Source of the DNA: Aldrovandia affinis
Lineage: Eukaryota; Chordata; Actinopteri; Notacanthiformes; Halosauridae
NCBI GenBank assembly: GCA_029706075.1
Contig: JAINUG010000260.1
Span: 1,093,001-1,157,000, forward strand
Direction: 5' to 3'
Length of the DNA stretch: 64,000 nt
The translations under genes were made by a program, and so were the position numbers. Below, one piece after another: positions 46,401 to 49,400 of the stretch. Positions within the stretch are counted from its first letter, which is position 1. Each line of letters opens with the position of its first letter. A model generated the notes under the pieces. It did no database searches. It saw only the letters and a program-made list of their open reading frames with translations, and was not told the DNA's origin.

Positions 46401-49400
46401 CCCGCCTTCCTCCGGATTGCCCAGGCCACCTGCTAATGCGGTCAACGCTGAGGTCAAAATTGTGAATTAGCTCCAGGTCAATAGTGGAGTTAACAGCTAC
46501 AGTTTATCTTGTGTAAAAGTGATGTGTGTTGGAAATCGGATGGTGGTGATGATGATAATGGTGATATTGATGGTAATGGTGGTGATGATGATGATAATGA
46601 TGGTGGTGGTGGTGATGATAATGGTGATATTGATGGTGATGATGATGGCGATGGCAATGAAGAAGATGATGATAAGAATAATGAAGACAGTTCAAGCCTG
46701 TTAGTGGTGATTGCACTGAATGAGAATTGCTATGTGTCTGAGGGCTGCCGAAATCAGCCTGGAAGGAATGGGACGTACAGTGAAACCATCGCTGTGAGCG
46801 AGTGAAAGGCCGGTAATGCTGAGTGGGAAGGTAGTGATTTAGACGGGTGCCAATAGGACCCTCTTCAGCTCCCGACGATTGCGTCCCTGCTTCAGGAGCA
46901 CCAATCAGCCACCAGAATTCCAACAATGAACAATCACCGATGACAACAGGAGACCTGCGGAAATGGCCACTGCTTATCACAATCAGCACCAGGCCTTTCA
47001 GTGCTGCCGTTTCTCTCTGTCTCCGCTTCGTTTCCCGAGCCCGTACGGCTTGAAAGGATGAAGCACAAAAGCCATAATGCATTTTACAATATTTTAACAT
47101 TGCATTAAAATCCACAAGTCTGGTTTGGGTCTCTCACCATGCCAGACACTTATTCAGCTGGTGCTGTGCTCGTCTCTGATCCCGTGGAAGAACTGGAATG
47201 AATAAAAAGGAGAAGATGAGGCTTAAAAGGAGAAGATGAGGTCATCCTGGTTGTTTTGCAAAAAAATACTGCTTTCAAATGTAAAAACCAAGTGCCTCCA
47301 AGATGCTTCAAGGATGTGTGCTTTTGGAGAGCACTTTCTGTGCCCTCGTGGTCTCTCTAGAACAGCTCGGCGAGGGAAAGGAAAGGACATTTCTGGTTGC
47401 TAATGTGGTTTTTCAGTGCATTCGATGATGTACCATGATAATCACCTTGGGCAATGTTGTCCTCAAGAGAAAGAGAAATCTGTCTTCAGCTTCTCATCAT
47501 TCAGCTGAACCTACACTGTTCAATTGAAAGACGAGCTCATAACCCGTATCAAATGTTTGTTATGAAACTATTGTGGAATTATAACATTATGTGCGTAACA
47601 TTTGTGTGTGTGTGTGTGTGTGTGTGTGTGTGTGTAAATGTGTTTGTATATGTGTGTCTGTGTGTTTGAATGCATGTGTGTGTGTGTCTGTGTGTGTGTG
47701 TGTTTGCGTGCATGTGTGTGTCTGTGTGTGTGTCTGTGTGTGTGTGTTGGTGTGTATGTGTGTGCATGTCTGTGTGTGTGTAAATGTGTTTGTATATGTG
47801 TGTCTGTGTGTTTGAATGCGTGCGTGTGTGTGTGTGTATGTCTGTGTGTGTGTGTGTGCGTGTGTGTGTGTGTGTGTGTGTGTGTGTGTGTGTGTGTGTG
47901 TGTGTGTGTGTGTGTGTGTGTGTGTGTGTGTGTGTGCGTGCGTGTCTGTGTGTGTGTGTGTGTGTGTGTGTGTGTGTGTGTGTGTGTGTGTGTGTGTGTG
48001 TGTGTGTGTGTGTGCGTGCGTGTCTGTGTGTGTGTGTGTGTGTGTGTGTGTCTGTGTCCTGGCAGTGCCCTCCATGCCGCAGCCTGACACGGGTGCTGGT
48101 GGAGTCGTACCGTACTGTGAAGGATTCTGGGCAGAAGTTCGAGATCGTCTTTGTCAGCGCAGACAGGTGAGACGTGCTTTCGATCCAGACACTGCTCATT
48201 CAGATTCAGTCATTTACCCGCCCCTGTCCTACCTTTGATCAAACGCACACCTGTCCACAGGTACTCAAGGTTTCATTTTTCACCAAACACAGGTCAGAAG
48301 AATCCTTTAAACAGTACTTCAGCGAGATGCCTTGGTTGGCTGTTCCGTACTTGGATGAGGGCCGGCGATCGCGGCTCAACAGGCTTTATGGAATTCAAGG
48401 TGGGTGTTTTCACTGGACCCATGAACGTGTCCTGTGCGTTAATAGAATATGTGTCCGAGGGGTGGGTGGTTGCTGAGCAGGGTGAAATGAAAGATGGAGG
48501 AGGAGGCGGAGGTAAGGCAGCAAACTGTTGGCAGATCAGGAGACAGAATTTTCTGTGATTCGCCAGCGACGTGTTTGAAGTGCAGTGTGATTTTGGACCG
48601 CGCTGCTTTCTCCAGGTATCCCCACCCTGATCCTCCTGGACCCAGAGGGTCACATGATCACTCGACAGGGTCGGGTGGAGGTGCTCAACGACCCAGAGTG
48701 CAGGCGGTTCCCCTGGCACCCACGGCCGGTTCTGGAGCTCAGCGAGTCCAACGCTGTGCAGCTCAACGAGGGGCCCTGTTTGGTGCTCTTTGTGGGTGAG
48801 TAGAGGGGGAGGGGAAGGGGAAATGGAAGGGGATGTTGGAGTGACAGTTCTTCATTGTTCTGGTTTGTAATTCTGTTGAAAGATGTAAAATAATACAGCA
48901 ACACAAACTGAGAGAGGCATGATTTAGGTACAGACAGGTCACTTCCATACAGGCTCATTGCCCCCGATCTCCTTGCTTGTTCTCTCTCCATCCTGTCATC
49001 CCTCTCCTCTCCTCTCCTCTGGATTCGTTCCTCTCCCTCACTCTTAAGATGCGGAGGAGGAGGATGAGCTGGAGCCAGCCAAGGAGCTGATCCAACCAAT
49101 CGCGGAGAAGATCATGGCCAAGTATAAAGCCAAGGAGGAGGAGACGCCGCTGCTTTTCTTCGTGTCCGGAGAGGTGAGCGTGCTCCTGTCTGTAACAAGA
49201 CCGAGAGGCCAGCTCTCTCAAGTCGCCCTGTGTGTGTGTGTGTGTGTGTGTGTGTGTGTGTGTGTGTGTGTGTGTGTGTGTGTGTGTGTGTGTGTGTGTG
49301 TGTGTGTGTGTGTGTGTGTGTGTGTGTGTGTGTGTGTGTGTGTGTGTGTGTGTGTGTGTGTGTGTGTGTGTGTGTGTGTGTGTGTGTGTGTGTGTGTGTG

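Follow-up and report, generated by a model that had tools for sequence, protein, structure and literature searches.

The window, that is, the whole stretch of 64,000 nt of Aldrovandia affinis DNA that was analysed, contains a nucleoredoxin (nxn) gene on the + strand, identified by tblastn and a spliced open frame, with 8 coding exons that together specify 418 residues from ATG to stop. The coding region spans 1118..56378 (+) and its frame ends in the C-terminal residues KPEPI; in the spliced frame, the exons lie at 1118-1426, 45101-45218, 46251-46384, 48066-48166, 48293-48399, 48616-48795, 49049-49173, and 56196-56378, all on the + strand. Both features by which a nucleoredoxin was recognised, thioredoxin-like domains (PF13905, Thioredoxin_8; E of 8e-55 over two stretches, the best of which covers residues 176-269) and a CPPC active site at residues 188-191, are present in the predicted product. 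The active site is encoded by exon 4 (48066..48166, +; tblastn and spliced frame), which begins with the codons TGC CCT CCA TGC (Cys188-Pro-Pro-Cys191) and is 101 nt long, in agreement with an earlier note on this DNA that had given it this length and opened it with the CPPC codons. Exon 4 is bordered by CAG on its 5' side and by GTGAGA on its 3' side, its donor matches 8 of 9 consensus positions, and the motifs GAAGG and AGAAG are present within it. The preceding intron, intron 3 (46385..48065, +), measures 1,681 nt, runs from GTGAGT to CAG, and holds no AC tract; an imperfect GAT-rich repeat (46539-46673) lies in the same intron, about 150 nt after the exon-3 donor.

The 3' end of intron 3 is taken up by a compound (TG)n array (47603..48057, +), recognised by TRF and by composition, that reads as UG in the transcript. 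The array is 455 bp long, corresponding to 227.5 units with 81% matches (TRF score 581), and is composed of 19 A, 21 C, 197 G, and 218 T. Its uninterrupted runs of at least 12 units comprise 16.5, 38, 34, and 13.5 units, and it holds an exact 105-nt self-repeat at an offset of 78 as well as one of 49 nt, also exact and containing 9 A/C interruptions, at an offset of 146. Between the array and exon 4 lie only the 8 nt CCTGGCAG (48058..48065, +), with the acceptor AG at 48064-48065, as placed by the sequence and the spliced reading frame. The claim that a TG array of about 460 bp ends 9 bp before the active-site exon of nxn is thus borne out at 455 bp and 8 nt; the last TG of the array ends at 48056, hence the earlier count of 9. 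A second, uninterrupted array, (TG)92, is found in intron 7, 55 nt past the end of exon 7 (49229..49412, +; TRF, 100% match).

The position of these arrays was compared with chance using nine TG/AC arrays picked from 35 TRF rows, with other repeat types and one overlapping row excluded; these nine make up 2.6% of intronic bases. Among 20,000 random distributions of these arrays over the introns, 0.9% brought an array end to 8 nt or less from an acceptor (0.7% if TG arrays alone are counted), and 0.6% brought at least two arrays into the 60 nt next to splice sites, figures that are post-hoc and pertain to one gene. No special ordinary hairpin is indicated within the intron-3 array, as its local folding gave an MFE of -32.9 kcal/mol, weaker than that of 30 mononucleotide shuffles (mean -47.3), in a program that does not model pUG folds. 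A look for relatives in viral contigs returned 17 pattern matches, none of which was confirmed by tblastn. Among the matches listed in the open-licence literature, there was no report of a UG array at nxn or of circular or skipped nxn transcripts in fish.

Long simple-repeat arrays are hard to assemble, and the exact 105-nt self-repeat at an offset of 78 inside the intron-3 array is what an array mis-sized during assembly might contain. If so, the length given above would be unreliable while the presence of the array before exon 4 would remain reliable. The 3' boundary of the array is clean (TCTGTGTCCTGGCAG) and interruptions mark its left part, both of which speak against such an artefact, and it is considered very unlikely.

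Several other repeats and mobile element remnants are present in the window. Intron 1 carries a 48-bp minisatellite (20716-21432) of 15 copies with 91% matches. Fragments of Tc1/mariner-type transposases were found at 41007-41606 (-), with a Sleeping Beauty HTH and a Tc3-type HTH, and at 42592-43020 (+) and 55337-55774 (-), each with a DDE_3 domain. UnaL2 LINE 3' elements are located at 34916-35061 (+), 43942-44081 (-), and 54180-54233 (-); two of the three adjoin tRNA matches, and these pairs may represent tRNA-derived SINEs with LINE tails.

The array leaves the acceptor of exon 4 with an unusual makeup. No C/T run longer than 4 occurs in the 50 nt that precede the acceptor AG, as compared to longest runs of 15, 11, 6, 8, 22, and 4 in the same interval at the acceptors of exons 2, 3, 5, 6, 7, and 8, respectively. 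The pyrimidine content of this interval (0.56) is nevertheless the same as at exons 5 and 6 and higher than at exon 8 (0.54), and its U content (0.42) is the second highest of the seven acceptors because the repeat supplies alternating U. The earlier statement that no ordinary polypyrimidine tract is present therefore stands insofar as the longest run is 4, but exon 8 shares this property and overall U is not low. The acceptor region of exon 8 (56087-56195) likewise has a pyrimidine run of at most 4 nt, together with an AG-free zone of 107 nt.

The AG exclusion zone before the exon-4 acceptor extends over 528 nt (47536..48063, +), the preceding AG being at 47534-47535, whereas those of the other six nxn introns measure 42, 33, 21, 28, 94, and 107 nt. 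This length follows from the fact that a TG repeat contains no AG, and selection need not be involved. Within the zone, a stretch of 225 nt (47839..48063, +) is devoid of adenosine. Apart from the A of the acceptor AG itself, the nearest one upstream of exon 4 is that at 47838, at a distance of 228 nt, and any adenosine branch point must be at least this far from the exon. Judging from the base composition, the array that fills the acceptor region probably makes splicing rely on a remote branch point, although the branch nucleotide may instead be other than adenosine or lie within the left part of the array. When more than 500 nt were scanned with a position matrix for branch points, the best-scoring candidate was CGTAAC (47594..47599, +; A at 47598, -468; score 4.55), just upstream of the array, with a weaker candidate, TATAAC, at 47584; the best score inside the array was 2.04. 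In random 47-nt intronic windows the best score has a median of 3.52 and a 90th percentile of 5.43, and a score of 4.55 is thus not exceptional and is no evidence by itself. Folding of intron 3 gave a single MFE structure in which 47598 is 174 instead of 466 steps away from the acceptor, an uncontrolled value that was given no weight.

Distant branch points associated with AG-free zones are described as an established class (PMC1431707). In human, 838 of 67,334 introns are reported to have an AG-free zone of at least 100 nt and 165 exons one of at least 150 nt, and exons of the latter kind are cassette exons in 32.5% of cases versus 19.8% overall; in Fugu, PTB exon 11 is given an AG-free zone of 590 and a predicted branch point at -566 (PMC1431707). 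With its zone of 528 nt, nxn exon 4 resembles PTB exon 11 and alpha-tropomyosin exon 3 as described in that source, and its 225 adenosine-free nucleotides likewise leave no adenosine branch point possible near the acceptor. Unlike in those two exons, the zone here is a simple repeat, the lack of AG is a by-product of that repeat, and the branch point is a candidate only.

The consequences of skipping exon 4 can be read from the spliced frame, which confirms the expectation that skipping of 101 nt shifts the frame. Joining of exon 3 to exon 5 yields 192 residues ending in HW-VRRIL-stop, and the stop lies 89 nt before the next junction, such that NMD is expected by the usual rule. The earlier note had also held that skipping removes Cys188-Cys191. 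The frame shift is as stated, but with NMD expected the result would be a change of dosage and not a protein that lacks the active site. Based on the reading frame, the array could alter the dose of nxn rather than yield an active-site-less protein. In mouse, a splice-site allele of Nxn that inserts 10 residues is reported to leave about 30% of the protein, with homozygotes dying perinatally, and over a null allele it gave 0 of 34 weaned offspring where 8 were expected (PMC2782131). By analogy, near-total skipping of exon 4 would carry a high cost, provided that the gene is as necessary in fish as in mouse. On the same proviso, the intact 418-residue frame and the lethality in mouse argue that exon 4 is normally included.

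One explanation for the arrangement, proposed in the earlier note, is that TDP-43 binds the UG array and blocks the acceptor, so that array length would set the extent of exon 4 skipping and hence the amount of nxn mRNA that survives decay. The precedent invoked for it is real. In CFTR homozygotes, mean skipping of exon 9 (legacy numbering) is graded by (TG)mTn genotype, from 5.3% for (TG)10T9, 12.0% for (TG)10T7, and 19.1% for (TG)11T7 to 52.5% for (TG)11T5 and 72.4% for (TG)12T5, among 13 subjects in total (PMC7911278; the precedent is also described in PMC12171016). UG repeats are TDP-43 targets, the RNA-binding domain of the protein being reported to bind a (UG)6/(GU)6 unit very tightly (PMC12697283, preprint), and 20 non-overlapping (UG)6 or (GU)6 stretches are available in the intron-3 array. 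TDP-43 is described as a repressor of splice sites near which it binds (PMC13343711), and constitutive exons that carry UG motifs, even short ones, are reported to be skipped upon its overexpression (PMC11163724). Further, human GT length is reported to correlate with TARDBP binding, and fine-mapped splice-altering repeats to be enriched within 100 bp upstream of human exons (PMC13174678, preprint). The cassette frequency behind long AG-free zones cited above (PMC1431707) also favours this explanation. As in CFTR, the nxn repeat lies directly upstream of the acceptor without a long pyrimidine run, is a TDP-43 target sequence, and precedes an exon whose skipping means loss of function, although the U content here is not low. 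However, CFTR carries about 10-13 units and a tract of T5-T9 (PMC12171016, PMC7911278), whereas nxn has about 227 units, no T tract, and an AG-free zone of 528 nt. Extended to about 227 units without a T tract, the CFTR trend would predict near-total skipping and a nearly silent gene, not the graded control that was proposed, and with 20 binding sites the gain or loss of a few units should matter little. Skipping of CFTR exon 9 reportedly also depends on hnRNP A1 acting at a silencer within the exon (PMC12171016), but the hnRNP A1 motifs cited for CFTR, namely TAG (UAG), CAGG, GGGGAA, GGGA, and GGGG, are all absent from nxn exon 4, which has a good donor; it should be noted that a plain look for motifs could miss a divergent silencer. 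By the NMD rule, moreover, skipping would give no stable protein isoform. In sequence, nxn exon 4 is similar to CFTR in its repeat and not in the rest of the arrangement, and TDP-43-dependent dosing through array length is regarded as unlikely. An effect of repeat length on splicing is already known in general (PMC13174678, preprint), and by analogy such control is possible, if doubtful, at nxn.

The remaining explanations draw on structures that the arrays might form. UG runs can be envisaged to adopt left-handed quadruplex structures (pUG folds), by which the distance from branch point to acceptor would be compacted, with TDP-43 keeping the RNA open. UG repeats are reported to be enriched near human splice sites (PMC12276007), and 12 repeats are reported to make a pUG fold, with fold and TDP-43 binding mutually exclusive in vitro (PMC12697283, preprint; PMC12276007). 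The four intron-3 runs and the one of 92 units in intron 7 have at least the 12 uninterrupted UG units of such folds, the quadruplex itself being putative. Human intronic pUG repeats likewise have 12 or more UG units in a row near splice sites, but the human maximum given is 61 repeats (PMC12276007), as opposed to 92 uninterrupted repeats in nxn intron 7. In vitro, pUG folding is reported to take minutes and fast TDP-43 binding can capture the RNA first (PMC12697283, preprint; PMC12276007), and a structural switch of this kind is deemed highly improbable.

Pairing between AC and GT tracts was likewise considered. Yeo and colleagues are said to have predicted in 2004 that GT repeats act as splicing enhancers in fish, which was given no weight, and Lin and colleagues reportedly placed AC-GT introns in 10% of genes (Genome Res, 2016). 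Zebrafish introns are reported to use AC-GT pairing (Lin et al. 2016 as cited in PMC6093180, PMC9508853, and PMC9198270), in a class whose introns each carry an AC tract after their own 5' splice site and are spliced independently of U2AF2. This is the nearest known class for the GT tract of intron 3, but assignment of intron 3 to it was rejected since the GT tract has no AC partner in the same intron: the best AC score inside intron 3 is 4 bases, and the best duplex of 118 intron-3 windows with array part 47861-48057 reaches -35.2 kcal/mol, a value attained by 5.75% of 400 background windows. With the same array part, stretches of three AC arrays gave -105.4, -93.4, and -86.7 kcal/mol, and no (AC)4 or (CA)4 runs were found in intron 7. 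The strong AC partners of the intron-3 array lie in intron 1, 13 to 23 kb upstream. Of the three AC arrays tested, that at 24384..24722 (+) is predicted to form the most stable duplexes with both TG arrays, at -562.0 kcal/mol for 47603-48057 and -355.3 kcal/mol for that of intron 7; a second intron-1 array at 32146..32310 (+; TRF) gave -294.2 kcal/mol with the intron-3 array. The UG arrays of intron 3 (and 7) might therefore pair across introns with the AC arrays of intron 1 and loop out exons 2-3, favouring an exon 2-3 circle or an in-frame joint of exon 1 to exon 4. Such a bridge would accord with the AC-GT pairing reported for zebrafish, the -562.0 kcal/mol duplex, and the 252 nt of exons 2 and 3, which lie between the intron-1 AC arrays and the intron-3 array and whose loss would leave a product of 334 residues in frame. 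Against it, 22.9 kb separate the intron-3 array from its AC partner, the exon-1 donor is a further 23 kb from that partner, a different TG array lies only 775 nt from the 24384-24722 array, and long simple repeats give large duplex energies by construction. The two UG arrays also bracket exons 4-7 (8 nt before exon 4 and 55 nt after exon 7), a block of 513 nt that is in frame. Since the frame is kept in any case by 6 of the 21 blocks of contiguous exons, neither this block nor that of exons 2-3 proves anything alone. The bridge across introns is viewed as a distinctly remote prospect. That the UG arrays, if variable and either held together by TDP-43 or base-paired to the AC arrays, could switch whole active-site blocks in or out (through 3-to-8 or 1-to-4 joints or circles) and so give in-frame redox-dead or shortened proteins instead of decay is likewise rated highly improbable.

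Taken from the sequence, the reading that is favoured, with restrained confidence, is that an expanded intronic microsatellite is tolerated at a distant-branch-point acceptor of nxn, such that exon 4 would be mostly included and array length would have at most a modest effect. The repeat would be an ordinary kind of intronic microsatellite, unusually long, that has expanded to fill the region before the intron-3 acceptor. Exon 4 would then be recognised via its good donor, exonic sequence, and a distant branch point, perhaps CGTAAC at -468, and the first AG downstream would be the correct acceptor because the array contains none. GU- or U-binding proteins (TDP-43, perhaps PUF60 or U2AF) would be expected to coat the array, with exon 4 included in most tissues. 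Any effect of array length on productive mRNA would be modest at most, because transcripts that skip exon 4 are expected to be degraded. Two reported trends, the frequency of cassette exons behind long AG-free zones (PMC1431707) and the skipping of exons upon TDP-43 overexpression (PMC11163724), lean by analogy towards regulation and against plain tolerance.

Under the favoured reading of a tolerated microsatellite, nxn exon 4 would provide an extreme natural test of the UG repeat that a vertebrate acceptor can tolerate. CFTR exon 9 suffers at 12 units, whereas nxn exon 4 is apparently spliced across about 227, with the 225 nt that precede the acceptor AG lacking adenosine. A constitutive exon 4 would mean either that UG tracts are read differently in fish splicing than in the setting of CFTR or that the exon is protected by the distant branch point and its own sequence; if exon 4 is not constitutive, the repeat would set the dose of a Wnt regulator.
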